Part shown: in pieces, positions 1,972 to 13,505 of the stretch
Layout: each line of letters opens with the position of its first letter
Numbering within the stretch: position 1 is the stretch's first letter
NCBI RefSeq assembly: GCF_004331995.1
Contig: NZ_SJDT01000003.1
Coordinates: 1 to 64,000 of the forward strand
Length of the DNA stretch: 64,000 nt
From: Arcanobacterium bovis
GTDB taxonomy: Bacteria > Actinomycetota > Actinomycetes > Actinomycetales > Actinomycetaceae
Reading direction: 5' to 3'
Notes under the pieces: generated by a model
What the model saw: only the letters and a program-made list of their open reading frames with translations
What the model was told of the DNA's origin: nothing
Database searches by the model: none
Program-made: the position numbers and the translations under genes

Positions 1972-3402
<1,431 letters not shown>

Positions 3403-3422: not shown

Positions 3423-4175
3423 CTAGGCGATTGCCGTGCGAAACCCCTGCGCTGCGATGTCGTTCAAAATTTGTGCACGTTTCATCCGCACGCCGGACAA
3501 AGCGCGCGACACCTGATCGGTAAAAGAGTCGACGTGCCGACTAGCGTCACGCAAGTCGTAGTAGGTTTGAAGCTCTAGATCGTAATCAGCCAGCGCCTCG
3601 ATCCACGACTCGCGATGCTCGTAGCCGTTTTCCATAAAGCGGAAATCACTACTCATGCGCGGTTTCAATTGTGGACTTTGATTTGGCACACCGAACGTCA
3701 AGCCAACCACTGGGAATGTATATAGTGGCAGATCAAGAGCATTCACCACCGCCATCGGATCATTGAGCACATTGCCGAGTAAATTCGCACCCAAACCAAA
3801 TGATTCGACTGCATTGACCACATTCTGCGCCATTAAGCAGGCATCAGTAAAAGCCTCGACGAACACGTCCATGGTACTAGCGCCGTCAATAGGCTCTTTT
3901 CGCTCCTGCAAGATTTGAATATTACGGTGCACGTCTACGATGAAAAGCCAATACTCGGGAGCGCGTGCCACATAAGGCTGTTGGCCAATCTGGGCTAATT
4001 CTGCTCGAATTTGTGCATCAGTAACCCGAATAACCGACGCTTGTTGCAGGCCACGTGAGGTAGCAGTGCGAATTGCAACGCTTTTCAACTCTGCGAGGGT
4101 GTCTGAGCTGATCGCCTCATCAGTAAATTCACGAATCGTGCGATGTCCCAATTGAGTATTGATTGTATGGTTCAC
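3423..4175 (-). CDS. NfsA-type nitroreductase/FMN oxidoreductase
   Basis: This is an FMN-dependent oxidoreductase of the nitroreductase superfamily, most like the NfsA/Frp (flavin reductase, oxygen-insensitive nitroreductase) branch. Evidence is the N-terminal HRTIREFTDE motif, which binds FMN phosphate in the family, the YVARAPEYWLFIVD strand around residue 88, and the characteristic TFPVVGLTFGVPNQ segment around residue 180 followed by KPR. The 250-residue length is typical. The physiological substrate is unknown. It sits between argG and argH, and from memory a gene of unknown role lies there in bifidobacterial arg operons too. A direct role in arginine synthesis is not implied by the family. 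Confidence 0.88.
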   Translation of the reverse strand: MNHTINTQLGHRTIREFTDEAISSDTLAELKSVAIRTATSRGLQQASVIRVTDAQIRAELAQIGQQPYVARAPEYWLFIVDVHRNIQILQERKEPIDGASTMDVFVEAFTDACLMAQNVVNAVESFGLGANLLGNVLNDPMAVVNALDLPLYTFPVVGLTFGVPNQSPQLKPRMSSDFRFMENGYEHRESWIEALADYDLELQTYYDLRDASRHVDSFTDQVSRALSGVRMKRAQILNDIAAQGFRTAIA

Positions 4176-4314: not shown

Positions 4315-5553
4315 TTAAGACAGGTTGAGCTTCGGCATAGCCTCGCCCTTGCCAAATTTCACGTCACGAGCGGCAGCGAGCTTAGATGTTAGGCCAGTAA
4401 TCTCGATGAAGCCTTTTGCATAACTTTGATCGAAGGAATCGCCCTCGTCATAGGTTGCCAAATTGAAATCATAAAGCGAAGTTTCAGACTTACGTCCAGT
4501 CACAACGGCACGACCACCATGCAAAACCATGCGAATATCGCCCGTCACATACTCTTGCGTATCTCGAATAAACGCATCCAAAGAACGCTTGAGCGGTGAG
4601 AACCACTGCCCCTCATAGACCAGCTCAGACCACCGCAGCGCAATACGCTGCTTATAACGAGCCTGTTCACGATCCATTGTGACTCGTTCGAGCTCTTTAT
4701 GTGCTTCGATCAAAGCCATCGCTCCAGGAGCTTCATAGATCTCACGCGACTTGATGCCCACCATACGATCTTCGACGATATCGATTCGACCAATTCCCTG
4801 TGCACCTGCGCGGCGATTCATCTCAACGATGGCTTCCAAAGGCGTGACCTTAACTCCGTCTATTGCCACAGGAATGCCTTTCTCGAAAGAAATCACGACT
4901 TCATCTGGCAAAGGTGGGTATGTAGGATCATCGGTGTAGTTATAAACATCCTTAGTTGGCGCATTCCAAAGGTCTTCCAAGAAACCAGTTTCAATTGCAC
5001 GACCCCACACATTTTGGTCAATCGAGAAGGGATTGTGGTGTGTGGTTTCAATCGGAAGATTGTGCTTATTGGCGTAGTTAATCGCAAATTCGCGCGTTAA
5101 TGCAAGATCGCGAACTGGCGAAAGACATGCCACATCAGGAGCCAAGGACGTAATACCGTTTTCAAATCGAACTTGATCGTTACCTTTACCGGTGCAACCG
5201 TGTGCCACAACACTCGCATCAAATTGGCGCGCTGCCGTCACCAAATGCTTGACGATCAACGGACGAGACAACGCCGAAACCAGCGGGTATGCATCCATAT
5301 ACAAGCCGTTTGCCTGTAGATCCAGCATGCAGTATTCCTCGGCAAATTCATCTTTCGCATCAGCGATATATGCTTCTACCGCGCCGCAATCGATCGCACG
5401 CTGACGGATTACCTCGAGATCTTCACCTCCCTGACCACAGTCAACCGACACGGTCACAACTTCTGCGCCAGTTTGTTCGGCGATCCATCCAATCGCCACG
5501 GACGTATCGAGACCACCAGAGTAGGCAAGAACTACACGATTATTAGCAGACAT
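4315..5553 (-). CDS. argG: Argininosuccinate synthase
   Basis: Condenses citrulline with aspartate using ATP to form argininosuccinate. The N-terminal ATP-pyrophosphatase loop AYSGGLDTS is at residues 10-18, and [11 protein letters not shown] and [15 protein letters not shown], further family landmarks, follow. Length 412 is normal for the type I enzyme. The ATG is preceded by GAAGGAGAG at good spacing. Together with argH it gives a citrulline-to-arginine module even though the upstream steps are not encoded here. A 111-nt gap separates it from argR. Confidence 0.98.
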
Positions 5554-5664: not shown

Positions 5665-6168
5665 TTAGTCATTTCGAGAACTTCGCGACAAATCCATAAT
5701 TTCTGCTACGAAGTTCTTCGCTATGTCTTCCGACGCCGTAACCACAAGCACTGTATCGTCACCTGCGATACAGCCCAAGACACCGTCAAACACCGCACGA
5801 TCGATTGCCGAAGCGAGCAACTGAGCAGCTCCTGGGGGCGTTCTCACAATCACTTGATTCAATACGCTCTGCGCGCTCGTAACCACCTCGCGTGCCCATC
5901 GCTCTAGCTGAGCGCGTGCCCCATATTCAGATTCAGCGAGTTCAACGATGTCTGGAATCCGATATACTCGTTTGCCGTCAGCTGCATATTCTTTGAATGC
6001 ATGGAGTTCTTCAAGGTCACGCGAGAGTGTAGCTTGAGTTACGCGGATACCCTCCTTTGCAAGGAGATCACGCAACTCACTTTGAGATGAAATTCCGTAC
6101 TGCTCAACGAGCGTCACGATCTTCGCGTGCCGCGCTGCACGAGTTGTTGGGATATTTACGCTCGCCAT
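5665..6168 (-). CDS. argR: Arginine repressor
   Basis: Transcriptional regulator of arginine genes, a DNA-binding hexamer with arginine as corepressor in the family. The N-terminal winged helix is recognised by SSQSELRDLLAKEGI and the recognition segment TQATLSRDLEEL. The C-terminal oligomerisation and arginine-binding domain contains the GDDTVLVV segment with the paired acidic residues that bind arginine. The same frame opens with a TTG four codons further upstream at 6180, inside the end of the argD-like gene, but the ATG at 6168 places the start 2 nt after that gene's stop and is preferred. It presumably represses its own cluster. Confidence 0.95.
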   Translation of the reverse strand: MASVNIPTTRAARHAKIVTLVEQYGISSQSELRDLLAKEGIRVTQATLSRDLEELHAFKEYAADGKRVYRIPDIVELAESEYGARAQLERWAREVVTSAQSVLNQVIVRTPPGAAQLLASAIDRAVFDGVLGCIAGDDTVLVVTASEDIAKNFVAEIMDLSRSSRND

Positions 6169-6169
6169 A

Positions 6170-7342
6170 TTAGTTTGCAAGTCCCTTCATGTGGTCGATA
6201 AACAGTTGTAAATGGTCAATAGAAATGTTGAGCGGCGGCGATAATTCGATCCGATCCTGCGCACCGACGTGCACAATAATCCCGCGCTCTTGCAATTGTT
6301 GTTGGACGAATTCAGCATCTTGAGTCCGAATACCAAGTAGCAAACCCTTACCCGAAACCTCATACCCACATTCGGAAAGCTCATCCCTTAGCCATTGACC
6401 CACCGAATTGATCTGACCGAATATCTTCCGAATCTCGTCAATTACGAGCATGGAAATATCGAACGAGAACGGATTACCAGCAGGAATGAGCCCCGAGAGC
6501 CTATCTGAATCCTGTTTAGCTCTCCGCGAGAGTAACAATGTGGCACCGAGGGGAACCCCACCGCCAAGGCCACGACCCACAGTGATTATGTCCGCCTTGA
6601 CGTAGGGAGCATGCACAAACCAGTCTCCAGTACGTCCCATACCAATATGCGTTTCATCCATAATCAGTAGCGCTTTGAACCGCTCGCAAAGAGCGCTCGC
6701 ACGTTGAAAAATTTCCTCATCCACAACGCCGGTGGCAGAGCGTAGATCCATCGGACTGAAAATGATGGTCGCAGTATCGTCGTCTACCACATTTTCCAGG
6801 GCTTTCGCAGTGGGTTCTACCGCAATGATGCGGGTTTGCGTTGATGCCGCAGACACCGAGCTCACAGGCCTTTCTGATGCGACGTTCGCTCCGCCGTCGT
6901 ACACTGGCGCGACGACGCCATACAGCTCGGAATCCGAGTGCACTGGCAAGAACGTAACGATATTTCCGCGCGGCTTGAACTGGAGCGCAATTTCAAGGGC
7001 GGCGCGATTTGCTTCGTGACCTGATCTGGTAAAACGTACCCGGGAGCTGGCACCCACGTAGCCTGATTCGGTCAAGCAACTCTGAATTGCCGTGGCTAGG
7101 CCAATCTGTTCTTCGGTGGCAAAATGATGTGTTGCCTCGAAAAGCTTATGCGTATTAGCTGCCGCATAGTTTGCAATAATAGGATTGTTATATCCCAGTG
7201 CGTTTGCTCCGCCACCAGCGGTCAGATCGAGAAAAGTATCGCCCTCATTATTCGTAAGAACTGAGCCGTCCGCTCGCTCAATGAGCATGCGAGGCGCGTG
7301 TATTGACTGACACAGCGCATGTTCATATCTACCACGCCACAT
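6170..7342 (-). CDS. ArgD-like aminotransferase homologue lacking the PLP-binding lysine
   Basis: The protein aligns along its 390 residues with acetylornithine aminotransferase (class III PLP enzymes): FLDLTAGGGANALGY near residue 37, TRSGHEAN at 105-112, MDETHIGMGRTG at 228-239 and a C-terminal RIELSPPL. Key active-site positions differ. The usual AKGLGGG segment reads GRGLGGG, so the Schiff-base lysine is Arg257 (codon CGT). The usual F-H-G-R-T segment is VHSDSELYG near 134, the E-P-x-Q-G-E-G segment is SPMDLRSATG at 196-205, and the STFGGNP stretch is reduced to PAGNP. The frame is intact. Position at the head of the arg cluster supports descent from argD. I infer loss of aminotransferase activity and perhaps a new, non-catalytic role; a specialised enzyme cannot be excluded. 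Confidence 0.85.
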   Translation of the reverse strand: MWRGRYEHALCQSIHAPRMLIERADGSVLTNNEGDTFLDLTAGGGANALGYNNPIIANYAAANTHKLFEATHHFATEEQIGLATAIQSCLTESGYVGASSRVRFTRSGHEANRAALEIALQFKPRGNIVTFLPVHSDSELYGVVAPVYDGGANVASERPVSSVSAASTQTRIIAVEPTAKALENVVDDDTATIIFSPMDLRSATGVVDEEIFQRASALCERFKALLIMDETHIGMGRTGDWFVHAPYVKADIITVGRGLGGGVPLGATLLLSRRAKQDSDRLSGLIPAGNPFSFDISMLVIDEIRKIFGQINSVGQWLRDELSECGYEVSGKGLLLGIRTQDAEFVQQQLQERGIIVHVGAQDRIELSPPLNISIDHLQLFIDHMKGLAN

Positions 7343-7434
7343 GTATTACCAGCTCCGACCTAAATTGCGTATATAGCACGAGTTGGCTGCAAGCGCGCCA
7401 AGCAAAAGCGTTCCACACCAACCCACAAAGCATA

Positions 7435-7463
7435 ACTATACTCTCTAATGTATGATATTGCAT
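7435..7463 (-). promoter_or_regulatory. Candidate promoter and ArgR-type operator of the arginine cluster
   Basis: On the minus strand a -10-like TATAGT (7440-7435) is overlapped just upstream by the imperfect palindrome ATGCAATATCATACAT (7463-7448). Its ATG/CAT ends and AT-rich centre resemble actinobacterial ARG boxes. It lies about 95-120 nt ahead of the argD-like start. No convincing -35 hexamer accompanies it. Assignment to ArgR rests on position and symmetry only. Confidence 0.35.
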
Positions 7464-7525: not shown

Positions 7526-8992
7526 TCACAGCATAAGCTGACGCAATTGCGGTGAAATTGGACGTGGAAGTTTCGACGTGCCACTCAAGAACTGATCCAC
7601 TCCATGCGCACACGAACGTCCCTCGGCAATCGCCCACACGATCAGTGACTGTCCGCGACCGGCGTCACCACAGGCAAAAACGCCAGGAACACTCGTCACA
7701 TATTCCTCATTGCGCACGATGTTTCCGCGTGCATCGAGTTCAAGACCAAGCTCATCAATAATTCCCGATTTTTGCGGTCCCACAAAACCCATTGCCAGCA
7801 GCACAAGTTCAGCGTCAATATGACGCTCAGTTCCCGGAACTGGCACAAATTGACCGGCATCAAACTTGACTTCAACAATATCCAGACCAGAAACCGCACC
7901 TGAGCCGTCATCAGTAAAAGCAACAGTATTCACTGCATAAACACGATCGCCGCCTTCTTCATGAGCCGAAGCAACCTTGAAAGTCATTGGGTATGTGGGC
8001 CACGGCTGATTTACCGGGCGCTCAGCACTCGGCATTGGCATTATCTCAAGCTGGGTAATTGATGCTGCTCCTTGGCGAATCGCTGTACCTAGGCAATCCG
8101 CACCAGTGTCGCCGCCACCAATAATCACCACATTCTTACCGGTAGCAGTGATCTGATCTGGTACTTCTACTCCCCTCGCCACTTTATTGGCCTGCGGCAA
8201 GTACTCCATTGCCTGATAGATTCCACGCAGATCTGCGCCCGGAACATTGATTCCACGCGGCACAGTTGCGCCAATAGCGAGCACCACGGCTTCATACATG
8301 TCACGCAATTCTTCGATGGTGATATCGACGCCGATCTCAACATTTGTCTTGAACTGCGTTCCTTCCAACACCATCTGCTTCAGACGCCGGTCAAGCACCG
8401 CCTTCTCAAGCTTAAACTCGGGAATTCCATAGCGAAGCAATCCGCCGATTTCATCCGCTCGTTCATAGACGACGACGGTGTGCCCCGCGCGCGTAAGCTG
8501 CTGCGCTACCGCAAGGCCTGCCGGACCCGAACCAACCACAGCCACCGTCTTTGAGGTGTGCCACTCTGGTTGTTGCGGCACAACGCGCAGATCATCCCAA
8601 GCCTTATCGATAATCGCGACTTCGACATTCTTGATGGTTACCGGATCGCGACTTATTCCCACCACACAGGACGTCTCACATGGAGCTGGGCACAATCTAC
8701 CTGTCAATTCTGGGAAGTTATTCGTCGCGTGCAGGCGCTCTAATGCTTCTTGCCATTTATCGCGCCAAACCAAGTCATTCCACTCTGGAATGAGATTTCC
8801 TAACGGACAACCGTTGTTACAGAACGGGATACCACAATCCATGCATCGGCTCGCCTGCTTCGTGATAATTGGAAGCACTGCTCGACCCACTGTTCCTGGG
8901 TAAACCTCATTCCAATCCTTGACACGCTCGTCAATCGCTCTGCGCTGCGGCACTTCCCGTGCCGTCGTAATAAATCCACGCGGATCAGCCAC
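7526..8992 (-). CDS. gltD: Glutamate synthase (NADPH) small subunit
   Basis: Feeds electrons from NADPH through FAD and iron-sulphur clusters to the large subunit GltB for glutamate formation from glutamine and 2-oxoglutarate. Cysteines for the 4Fe-4S centres are at residues 50, 53, 58, 62 and again at 101, 105, 109. The FAD-binding GSGPAGLA is at 154-161 and the NADPH-binding GGGDTGAD is near 288. Length 488 is standard. The start lies 8 nt inside gltB, implying translational coupling. No strong terminator separates it from the arg promoter region downstream. Confidence 0.97.
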
Positions 8993-11900
8993 GAGCCACC
9001 TCCATCATCAGGTCAGTTGTTTCACGTTCTGTCAGATTACGTTCTTTTGCTTCTTGGGCAGCAGCCATTATTTTGGCGTATGTGCGCGGAGAAATCTTCT
9101 TGAAACGCTGCGCGAGCTCGGCATCCGTTGTGCCAAGCAATTCCTTGGCGATATCAGATCCGGTCTGCGCACTATGCTGCTCAAGTAGCTCTCGAATCCG
9201 GTCAATATCTACGGCTTCGAGGTCCACAACATCTACTAATTCTGTGTTGACGCGCGCCGCATCAAGATCAAGAACCCATGCCACGCCACCGCTCATTCCG
9301 GCCGCAAAATTGCGTCCCACCGAACCGAGCACAAGTACTTCGCCTCCGGTCATGTATTCACATCCATGATCGCCTACGCCCTCTACCACCGCAGTTGCGC
9401 CGGAATTGCGCACGCAGAAGCGTTCGCCCACGGTACCACGCAGGAAGATTTCACCCGACGTCGCACCATAACCAATCACGTTACCGGCGATTATTTCCTT
9501 TCGTGGATCGAAACGAACACCAGACGGCGGCGTCACGATAATGCGTCCGCCCGAAAGGCCTTTACCTACGTAGTCATTGGAATCGCCGATCAACCGCAAC
9601 GTGACTCCGCGTGGTAAGAATGCGCCAAAACTCTGACCTCCAGTACCACTCATAGTGAACTCGATGGTTCCGTCAGGCAATCCTCTGCCCTCAGTTGCCC
9701 GCGTCACCGCATTACCGAGCTGTGTTCCCACAGTGCGATTGACATTGCGAACCTCGACTGATTCACGCACACGCGTACCATTTTCCAGCGCAGGGCGAGC
9801 CAGTTCAATCAGCTTTTGATCCAAAGCCTCGTCCAAGCCGTGATCCTGAGTACTCGTGCAGCGCCTAGCGACATCTACCGGAATATCACTTCCAGCAAGC
9901 ACTGCAGAGAGATCGATTCCTTGTGTCTTCCAGTGCCCGACTGCGGCATCCGTGCGCAACAGATCAACTCTGCCAACCGCTTCGTCGATACTGCGTAAAC
10001 CGAGGCTAGCCAAAAGTTCGCGCACCTCTTGAGCGATAAACGTAAAGAAATTGATCACATGCTGCGGATCACCCGTGAATTTCTCACGTAGCTGCGGATT
10101 TTGGGTTGCGATACCAACCGGGCACGTATCTTTGTGGCACACACGCATCATTACACAACCAGTGACGACGAGCGGAGCGGTTGCGAAACCGTATTCCTCG
10201 GCGCCTAGAAGTGCAGCAATGACGACGTCGCGTCCAGTTTTCATCTGACCGTCAGCTTGCACTACGATGCGGTCGCGTAGCCCGTTGAGCAAAAGCGTCT
10301 GTTGCGTTTCTGCCAAGCCGAGCTCCCACGGAGCTCCTGCGTGCTTAACGGAAGTCAACGGCGCAGCACCGGTACCGCCGTCGCGCCCCGAAATGAGCAC
10401 CACATCAGCTTTCGCTTTCGAAACACCTGTAGCAATCGTGCCAACGCCAACCTCGGATACGAGCTTGACGTGTACGCGCGCCCGCGGATTTGCCGACTTG
10501 AGATCGTGAATCAGCTGTTTTAGATCTTCGATTGAATAGATATCGTGATGTGGAGGCGGAGAAATGAGTCCTACACCTGTCGTTGAATGGCGAGTCTTTG
10601 CCACCCACGGGTACACCTTCGGTCCAGGCAATTGACCGCCTTCACCGGGCTTTGCTCCCTGGGCCATCTTGATTTGGATATCATCGGCGTAAGTCAGATA
10701 CTCCGAGGTCACGCCAAAACGACCAGAAGCCACCTGCTTAATTGCAGACCGACGAGCTGGATCGTGCAAACGCTCCGAGTCTTCGCCACCTTCACCAGTA
10801 TTGGATTTACCACCCAAACGGTTCATGGCGATAGCAAGGGTCTGGTGTGCTTCTTCAGAAATTGAGCCGTAGCTCATCGCGCCGGTTGAGAACCGCTTAA
10901 CAATCGATTCCACTGGCTCGACTTCCGAGATATCGATGGGCTGCACATCCTTGAATTTGAGCATCGAACGCAGGGTCATTACCCGTTCCGAATTGCTATT
11001 GACAAGCGCCGTATAGCGCTTAAACTGCTCGTAATCACCGCTCTTCGTCGACTGTTGAAGCCGGAACACGGTTTCAGGATCGAGCAGGTGATGTTCGCCT
11101 TCCCTGCGCCATTGATATTCACCACCAGTGCGCAGGTCACGGTGTGCAAGTGGAATACCATCAGCAGGATATGCAACCAAGTGACGCATATGAACTTCTT
11201 TGGCAATTTCATCAAGCGCCACCCCGCCGATTCGGGCAGCTGTGCCCGTGAAATAGGTATCGACAAAGTTCGAATCAAGACCGATTGCTTCAAAGAGCTG
11301 CGCTCCTGTGTACGAAGCAACAGTGGATACGCCCATCTTGCTCATAATCTTCAAAACGCCTTTCGAGAGCGCCTTGGCGATATTCGCGATGGCCTTATTG
11401 GGATCAACATCTACATAAAGTTCACGGCGGGCGAGATCTTCGGCAGTTTCAAAAACCAAATAAGGATTAACTGCCGCGGCACCGTAAGCAAGCAAGAGCG
11501 CAATATGGTGAACTTCGCGCACATCTCCAGCCTCTACCACGAGACCAACCTGAGTACGAGTCTTCTCCCGTACCAGATGGTGGTGAATTGCCGAGGTGAG
11601 CAGCAATGATGGGATCGGTGCAAACTCTGCGTTCGAATGGCGATCGGATACCACGATTACTCGTGCTCCCCCACGAATTGCTGCCGATACCTCTTGGCAA
11701 ATCTCATCGATCTTCGCTTCGAGCGCACGCCGACCACCAGCGACCCGATACACACCTTTGACCACATGCGACGAAAATCCAACTACGTTACCCTCGCGCA
11801 AGCGCACAATTTTTGCGAGTTGCTCAGAGTCGAGAATCGGATTGCGCATCACAATTTGGCGTGCTGATTCCGGCGTTGGGGTAAGAAGATTTCGTTCCGA

Positions 11901-13505
11901 ACCAATTTTCGTCGTGAGTGAGGTGACGAGTTCTTCGCGAATCGCATCCAATGGCGGGTTCGTGACTTGCGCGAAGATTTGAGTAAAGTAATCGAAAATC
12001 AAACGAGGACGCTCTGACAACACAGCGATAGGAGTGTCGGTTCCCATTGATCCGATTGCTTCGGCACCTGTATTCGCCATCGGTGCAATAATTAAGCGCA
12101 GTTCTTCTTCGGTATAACCAAATACTTGCTGGCGGCGCGTCACTGACGAATGCGAATGCACAATATGTGCTCGAGTGGGCAGCTTATCTAATTCGATTTT
12201 GTTCTTATCGAGCCACTCACCATAGGGGTGTTCAGCTGCCAAAGAATTCTTCACTTCTTCATCCGAGAGCACCTTGTGCGAATCGAGATCCACCAAGAAC
12301 ATACGGCCTGGTTGCAGGCGACCTTTCTTGACAATCGTCGTCTGATCGATGTCGAGCACACCAGCTTCCGAAGCGAAAACCACTAAGCCTTCGTCAGTCA
12401 CCCAATAGCGCCCCGGACGCAAGCCGTTACGGTCGAGCGTGCCGCCAATGATCGATCCATCAGTGAAAGTGATAGACGCCGGACCGTCCCAAGGTTCCAT
12501 AATAAGTGAATGGTACTCATAGAAGTTCCGTCGCAAGGCATCCATATCTTGGTTGCCTTCCCATGCCTCAGGAACCATCATCATCACTGCGTGCGGAAGT
12601 GATCGACCGCCCAGATGCAGTAGCTCAAGTACTTCGTCAAAGGACGCCGAGTCTGATCCGTCTGGCGTGCAGATTGGGAAGAGCTTGTCCATATTGCCTG
12701 GGAATTTATCGGATGTGAGCATCGCTTCGCGGGCACGCATCCAATTTCGGTTGCCCATGACGGTATTAATTTCTCCGTTATGGGCGATCAAACGGAATGG
12801 ATGTGCAAGCTCCCAAGACGGGAAAGTATTGGTCGAAAAACGGGAGTGCACGAGCGCCAAGGCCGAAGCCATCTTCGGGTCATGTAGCTCTGGGAACACT
12901 TCTTCCAGTTGGCTTGTGGTGAGCATACCTTTGTAAACCAAAGTACGCGCCGACAGCGAAGCAAAATAAACATCCGTATCGTTTTGGATGCGCTTCCTGA
13001 GCACAAATGCGTATCGATCGAGGTCAATTTCGCTTTGACCAGCACGTCCAGTAACAAAAAGAAACTCAAAATGTGGCATTGCCTCAACTGAGATTGGCGA
13101 TAATGTGTCGGTTCGTACCTCAATATTGCGCCATCCAAGCAGCTCAAGGTCAGTTTCTTCAACAAGCTCTGCGATGTGCTGTTTAATTTCTGCACGCTCG
13201 CCGTCATCTGTTGGCAAGAATGCCATGCCGACGGCGTATTCCCCCTTTTCCGGTAGGCGGAAGTCCACAGTAGAACGGAAATATTCGTCCGGCACCTGAA
13301 TGAGGATACCCGCACCGTCACCTGCGGCTTCGTCTGCTCCGGTAGCACCGCGATGATCCAGATTTCGAAGCGCTTCCAGCGCCTTCTCGACGATATCGTG
13401 TCGAGGTTTTCCATCTAGGTGCGCAACAAAGGCTACGCCACAAGCATCATGTTCAAAATTCGGCTGATACAACCCCATTTGAGCACGGCGTTTGAATACG
13501 GACAT
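8985..13505 (-). CDS. gltB: Glutamate synthase (NADPH) large subunit
   Basis: Large subunit of GOGAT, which with glutamine synthetase assimilates ammonia. A short propeptide ends before Cys22 in HDACGVAF, the amidotransferase nucleophile that becomes the N-terminus after cleavage. The class II glutaminase domain takes the first ~430 residues, followed by the linker domain and the FMN-binding synthase barrel with [11 protein letters not shown]. The 3Fe-4S cysteines are in [15 protein letters not shown]-terminal beta-helix rich in glycine ([10 protein letters not shown]) ends the protein. At 1506 residues it is full length. AGGGGAGG-type purines precede the ATG. It is the first gene of gltBD and about 230 nt from pheT, which is transcribed toward it and ends in its own terminator. 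Confidence 0.98.

Follow-up and report, generated by a model that had tools for sequence, protein, structure and literature searches.

Homologues of PLP enzymes that lack the PLP lysine are already known. LCB1/SPTLC1, a subunit of serine palmitoyltransferase, has no such lysine and retains a cellular role according to the available part of PMC3794620, and Rv3778c of Mycobacterium tuberculosis is a further lysine-less homologue, which is expressed and thought to be non-catalytic (available part of PMC12910592). For the acetylornithine aminotransferase ArgD (models TIGR00707 and NF002874; solved structures 2eh6 and 7nn1), we found no report of a lysine-less form among the literature matches listed. 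For Mobiluncus mulieris, the accessible text of PMC9294530 gives argDRGH as present and argCJB as absent.

Here, we describe an ArgD homologue of Arcanobacterium bovis in which the Schiff-base lysine is replaced by arginine, and which is very probably a selectively maintained pseudoenzyme. The loss of the PLP lysine from a PLP-enzyme homologue is shared with LCB1 and Rv3778c, as far as the accessible parts of the two sources show. LCB1, however, belongs to another PLP-enzyme family and pairs with its active homologue LCB2, whereas no such ArgD paralogue was found in A. bovis. Rv3778c is a relative of the cysteine desulfurases, and the available text of PMC12910592 describes neither a repeated loss nor a link to ArgR. 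Compared with ArgD itself, the protein shows full-length homology, its best PDB matches are ArgDs, and its gene stands before argR, where argD is also found in relatives whose pathway is complete; it differs in the missing Schiff-base lysine, in most PLP and substrate contacts, in its low score and in the absence of argC.

The arg locus of A. bovis and its ArgD homologue

The window, i.e. the whole stretch of 64,000 nucleotides that was analysed, stems from the A. bovis genome (G000; 2.02 Mb, estimated to be 100% complete). The gene order at the locus is pheT, gltB, gltD, lysine-less argD, argR, argG, nitroreductase, argH and tyrS, with the following features:

7430..7441, minus strand: candidate ArgR box GTATAGTTATGC, 87 bases before the start codon of the lysine-less ArgD
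6170..7342, minus strand: lysine-less ArgD homologue, an open frame with ATG start, 390 codons plus stop, matching Aminotran_3
6572..6574, minus strand (read 6574-6572): codon CGT of Arg257, which aligns with AstC Lys252, the Schiff-base lysine
5665..6168, minus strand: argR, with both arginine-repressor Pfam domains; the ORF list has an upstream TTG at 6180
4315..5553, minus strand: argG, TIGR00032 above cut-off
3423..4175, minus strand: nitroreductase gene of the operon, Pfam Nitroreductase
1972..3396, minus strand: argH, TIGR00838 above cut-off

A sequence-only reading of this DNA had noticed an arginine (CGT) in place of the PLP lysine of an ArgD-like protein with an uninterrupted frame of 390 codons, and both observations were borne out. 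Pfam Aminotran_3 (PF00202) matches residues 18-386 with 143 bits (cut-off 30.5), and the class III aminotransferase domain spans the whole protein. Homology to the ArgD models covers residues 2-387, but the acetylornithine transaminase models match far below their cut-offs (184.9 vs 457 bits and 171.5 vs 410 bits).

The protein was aligned with E. coli AstC, using the cofactor and substrate contacts given in the available part of PMC3590144. The Schiff-base residue Lys252 of AstC corresponds to Arg257. Asp223, the N1 aspartate, is retained as D229, an aspartate present in 142/142 aligned family rows, whereas Gln226 (O3' contact) is replaced by H232, Ala106 by H109, the substrate-binding Arg141 by S138, and Thr281, which contacts the phosphate from the neighbouring subunit, by I286. 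R366, present in 139/142 family rows, is Glu in the window protein, and both R366 and R138 are altered in two Arcanobacterium genomes (G000 and G002). We take the conserved R366 to be a substrate-binding arginine. The claim that several active-site parts had been lost thus held up, most of the other cofactor and substrate contacts being changed relative to AstC. From these replacements we infer that the protein would be unable to transaminate, and the Arcanobacterium form is probably unable to hold PLP tightly because residues that touch phosphate, O3' and substrate have been replaced. Clear homology combined with a lost catalytic residue is in keeping with a pseudoenzyme of a PLP fold-type I family.

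A displaced lysine was considered as a substitute for the Schiff base and rejected: the three Arcanobacterium copies share just K123 and K249, columns that hold lysine in 29 and 14 of 132 canonical rows, respectively, and none takes over the position in the alignment. Chance or an assembly error is an unlikely source of the replacement because two further Arcanobacterium genomes carry the protein with the same arginine, at 73% and 56% identity. The copy of A. pluranimalium DSM 13483 (a named RefSeq record, L007), which shares its genus group with G002, is 73% identical.

As for a second, complete argD, none was found in the A. bovis genome, where the P0001 search returned two weak extra matches. 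The argD-model search gave five matches, of which the four listed are the lysine-less ArgD, the same two weak ones and a third; the three others (L200-L202) are different class III enzymes, one of them HemL-like by reading. Neither search revealed a close active ArgD paralogue in this genome, and there were no relatives of the lysine-less ArgD in viral contigs.

The related genome G198 shows the order pheS, pheT, SDR, argC, argJ, argB, argD, argR, argG, nitroreductase, argH and tyrS, in comparison with which the A. bovis locus lacks argC, argJ and argB. In the whole A. bovis genome, the best argC match reached an E value of 2.5e-5, under the cut-off, and arcA gave no match. The sole match to the OTC family is PyrB (aspartate carbamoyltransferase), hence no ornithine carbamoyltransferase was found. 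A catabolic use of the lysine-less ArgD was considered and rejected, as neither arcA nor an ornithine carbamoyltransferase was found in the genome. Its gene content would allow the cell, at best, to make arginine from imported citrulline via argG and argH. In G000, G001 and G002, gltD and gltB (window 7526-13505) separate pheT from the arg genes, at the place where G198 has the SDR gene and argCJB; G001 retains the SDR gene, too.

Lysine loss in the Actinomycetaceae

P0001 matches at 1e-30 or better were obtained in 138/213 family genomes at 139 places, which together with three argD-model matches formed an alignment of 142 proteins (seven duplicate loci omitted). The lysine column holds Lys in 132 and Arg in 10 of these proteins. 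Arginine occurs in G000, G001 and G002 (Arcanobacterium), in G069 and G071-G075 (g7) and in G196 (g32). An argC above cut-off is present in 0/10 genomes with Arg vs 125/128 genomes with Lys, and three genomes with Lys (G026, G122, G188) show partial argC matches under the cut-off.

The ArgD tree (45 rows; 15 of 60 omitted, seven as duplicates and eight lying in long open frames) places G196 inside canonical g32; Arcanobacterium and g7 stand together on long branches, and only two changes are forced. In the marker tree, based on PheT, PheS and TyrS from 20 genomes (including 4/6 g7 genomes; G001 and G004 by TyrS only), the Arg label needs three changes; the starred branches force three, and the deepest fork is weak. 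A single origin of the replacement was rejected on the basis of the three separate changes in the marker tree. Consistent with separate origins of the lysine loss, Arcanobacterium G006 still has, next to pheT, argC, argJ, argB and an ArgD with the lysine.

Across the family, 68 genomes lack an argC above cut-off, and 55 of them were searched, omitting the ten with Arg and the three with Lys and partial argC. Ten of the 55 contain a class III match at 1e-40, at twelve places, with Lys in eleven and Gly in one. The Gly-bearing gene of G131 (L245, 8588-9799, minus strand) represents a fourth lineage. It immediately precedes argR, which is followed by argG, argH and tyrS, whereas pheS and pheT are situated on the other side; there was no match to argC, argJ or argB within 19 kb at this locus, and the genome-wide search for argC reached just 1.1e-5. 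Because its gene content fits argDRGH without argCJB, G131 is probably Mobiluncus mulieris, and it matches the gene order and the argCJB loss given for that species in the accessible text of PMC9294530. That text lists argD in the arginine operon and mentions no missing lysine, and the residue in G131 is Gly, not Arg.

In all four lineages, argD lies directly before argR, and argJ and argB are absent from the locus. Alignment and marker tree together indicate that the lysine was lost separately in four lineages, being replaced by Arg three times and by Gly once. At the order level, the profile of the lysine-less ArgD matches 360/396 sampled genomes, and the lysine column is known for the 29 loci read alone, of which 24 carry Lys and five are the already known genes with Arg.

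Some further gene arrangements were observed. Four genomes (G004, G005, G007, G076; L235-L238) encode second, divergent ArgD-like proteins with Lys and show divergent argC matches (1e-37 to 1e-45); in G076, the divergent gene adjoins relatives of argJ and argB. In G196 (L079, 7496-9132), no arg genes remain between pheT and tyrS except the lysine-less argD and argR, and an arcA match adjoins an OTC-family gene elsewhere in the genome.

Selection and parallel change

The sequence-only reading had offered two explanations for the altered protein, selection for a role other than transamination or very recent decay, and had named a dN/dS ratio near 1 as the sign of the latter. The ratios are 0.10 for the Arcanobacterium pair G000-G002 (dN 0.204, dS 2.03, with dS near saturation) and 0.107 (0.0283/0.265) for the close, unsaturated g7 pair G072-G073, both far from 1. 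For G000-G002, the corresponding values are 0.044 for argR, 0.049 for the nitroreductase, 0.032 for tyrS, 0.025 for gltD, 0.022 for argH and 0.004 for argG, so that among the genes compared in this pair the lysine-less ArgD evolves fastest. Among four g7 genomes, it is 79-85% identical, ArgR 77-89% and the nitroreductase 69-72%.

Over residues 91-120, the proteins of the three Arcanobacterium species show 97-100% identity, and the four-fold sites of this block differ at 11/20, 13/18 and 13/18 positions. The blocks from 211 to 300 are well kept (67-93% identity), and residues 273-291 are well conserved in altered form, whereas 151-180 and 301-330 show only 25-43%. Conservation acts on the protein rather than on the DNA, the altered former active-site segments included. 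The frame is intact in all eleven lysine-less copies. These ratios and patterns indicate that the lysine-less ArgD of Arcanobacterium and g7 is under purifying selection.

For G196, dN/dS against the lysine-bearing G192 and G195 is 0.11 and 0.19, compared with 0.19 for the lysine-bearing pair G195-G192. For G131, the values against lysine-bearing relatives are 0.089 and 0.104, and those of lysine-bearing pairs 0.062 and 0.034. As the G196 and G131 pairs share a past as active enzymes, these ratios do not isolate the time after lysine loss.

Canonical ArgD has 115 columns with a conservation of 90% or more. Changes affect 48 of them in Arcanobacterium, 31 in g7, 22 in G131 and 14 in G196, against 1-4 in eight lysine-bearing rows. 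All 14 changes of G196 fall within the 59 columns altered in Arcanobacterium or g7 (hypergeometric 4e-5, uncorrected for mutational bias). In G131, 16/22 changes fall within columns of the other three lineages (0.02, likewise uncorrected for mutational bias), so that six are its own.

Three of the 115 columns (41, 45 and 257) carry a change in every one of the lineages. The canonical rows have Ala in column 45 (share 1.00 when rounded), and 11/11 lysine-less proteins have Gly there. A control with random triples gave 0/20,000, which is a weak test since the canonical rows barely vary there by construction; the count across the four lineages is more informative. We take columns 41-46 to be the GIAV loop that lines the pocket in this family. 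Replacement of Ala45 by Gly might create space for Arg257, which leaves the Gly-bearing G131 unexplained.

Position next to argR and possible functions

The expectation that the gene heads an operon with argR proved correct, and an ArgR-box-like site lies upstream. The GTATAGTTATGC site was spotted by eye in the upstream regions, and the exact pattern RTATANTTATRC has a single match in the A. bovis genome. The 12-bp site precedes the lysine-less argD in the eight genomes examined (G000, G001, G002, G069, G071, G072, G074 and G196), and in G193, which has a complete operon, the genome's only RTATANTTATRC match lies just before argC. At the G131 locus, the strict pattern was not found. The reversed control pattern has five matches in the A. 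bovis genome, and the sequence alone is therefore not significant; across whole genomes, the control yields 1 to 5 matches, equal to or above the RTATANTTATRC counts in several, i.e. there is no enrichment. The shared position fits a putative ArgR box. The E. coli-type ARG-box consensus gave weak matches only, and an upstream scan for sigma-70 promoters gave none.

The ATG of argR lies one base past the stop of the lysine-less ArgD, with a possible ribosome site within the latter gene; in G071 and G196, and likewise in the lysine-bearing G193 and G195, argD and argR share four bases. The argD-argR neighbourhood, too, already exists in relatives with lysine-bearing ArgD, which tells against the regulatory or scaffolding role that the sequence-only reading had deemed conceivable. 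The nitroreductase gene also adjoins ArgR in the four annotated g7 loci bearing lysine-less ArgD. Between pheT and tyrS, only argR adjoins the lysine-less gene in every one of the four lineages. On this ground, a role with ArgR is the most plausible single proposal; we put it forward tentatively, at somewhat less than an even chance. ArgR was found in each of the six Arcanobacterium and three g7 genomes that gave no match to the lysine-less ArgD, hence ArgR can do without it. In several Arcanobacterium and g7 genomes (L071, L073-L078), argR is still present between pheT and either tyrS or argG, and argD has been lost.

We take the protein to descend in place from an acetylornithine aminotransferase and to have become a pseudoenzyme after its pathway was lost. 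The sequences show that, in four Actinomycetaceae lineages lacking argC, argD remained immediately ahead of argR with an open frame and lost the Schiff-base lysine. The product may be a non-catalytic partner co-made with ArgR from an ArgR-controlled promoter, which is the less certain part of the proposal. Most likely it would be dimeric, with some other ligand or partner bound in what used to be the cofactor pocket, and it might modulate how ArgR controls the arginine genes that are left. We consider the account as a whole, a maintained pseudoenzyme with ArgR as its likeliest partner, moderately probable. A bolder version, which appears rather doubtful, holds that Actinomycetaceae ArgD has from the outset had a further, non-catalytic function connected with ArgR, that loss of the early steps unmasks it, and that the enzyme half is shed in a similar way each time (loss of Lys257, Ala45 to Gly), leaving an ArgR co-regulator or ligand sensor.

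New chemistry without the lysine comes next after the ArgR role, although we regard it as unlikely. Such a repurposed enzyme would hold PLP or PMP non-covalently in g7, G196 and G131 or work without cofactor in Arcanobacterium. The Asp229 retained in all aligned family rows, the conservation of altered pocket segments in Arcanobacterium and the larger number of cofactor and substrate contacts kept by g7, G196 and G131 than by Arcanobacterium would suit an enzyme, but the lysine is gone in each lineage, R366 and R138 are changed in G000 and G002, and the neighbouring genes suggest no common substrate. A non-catalytic subunit or ligand-binding protein serving a partner other than ArgR, e.g. the nitroreductase or another enzyme, has a precedent in the lysine-less subunit LCB1 (accessible part of PMC3794620), and the conserved, altered segment 273-291 includes the counterpart of an AstC loop that enters the neighbouring protomer (available part of PMC3590144). 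The absence of a close active ArgD paralogue in A. bovis and the position of argR as the only gene adjoining argD in all four lineages speak against it, and we give it very little weight.

Lower still, we rate a cis-acting relic whose frame is kept only through translational coupling to argR. The one-base spacing with its possible ribosome site and the four-base overlap in G071 and G196 would allow for coupling, yet this needs an open frame and not conserved residues, whereas dN/dS is about 0.1 and the altered segments are conserved; moreover, G070 and G077 have ArgR without a preceding ArgD. Least probable of all is a pseudogene on its way out after pathway loss. The loss of argC, the 48/115 changed columns in Arcanobacterium and the fastest rate among the operon genes compared could be read as decay, but eleven frames are intact, dN/dS is about 0.1 and the altered motifs are fixed across species. 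Of the two explanations initially offered, selection for a non-aminotransferase role thus gained support from the dN/dS of about 0.1, the conserved altered pocket segments and the four separate lysine losses; very recent decay is not supported for Arcanobacterium and g7 and is less firmly excluded for G196 and G131, each known from a single genome.

Several stages in the repeated conversion of one enzyme into a retained pseudoenzyme can rarely be seen side by side. Here, the number of changed columns rises stepwise from G196 (14) through G131 (22) and g7 (31) to Arcanobacterium (48), and the lysine-bearing sisters serve as controls. An argD without argCJB may be misread as a working part of arginine synthesis. 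If the protein acts on ArgR, a metabolic enzyme would have a hidden regulatory role in a textbook regulon, and this is directly testable.

Some box matches lie away from the arg locus. In G069 and G074 (L093, L095), extra matches are located ahead of a gene that resembles argG but is of another type, and that in G074 is followed by an argH-like gene (by reading), and one match in each of the two genomes lies beside a lipoprotein gene that reads as substrate-binding-like. Further matches in G071 and G074 are situated near unrelated genes.
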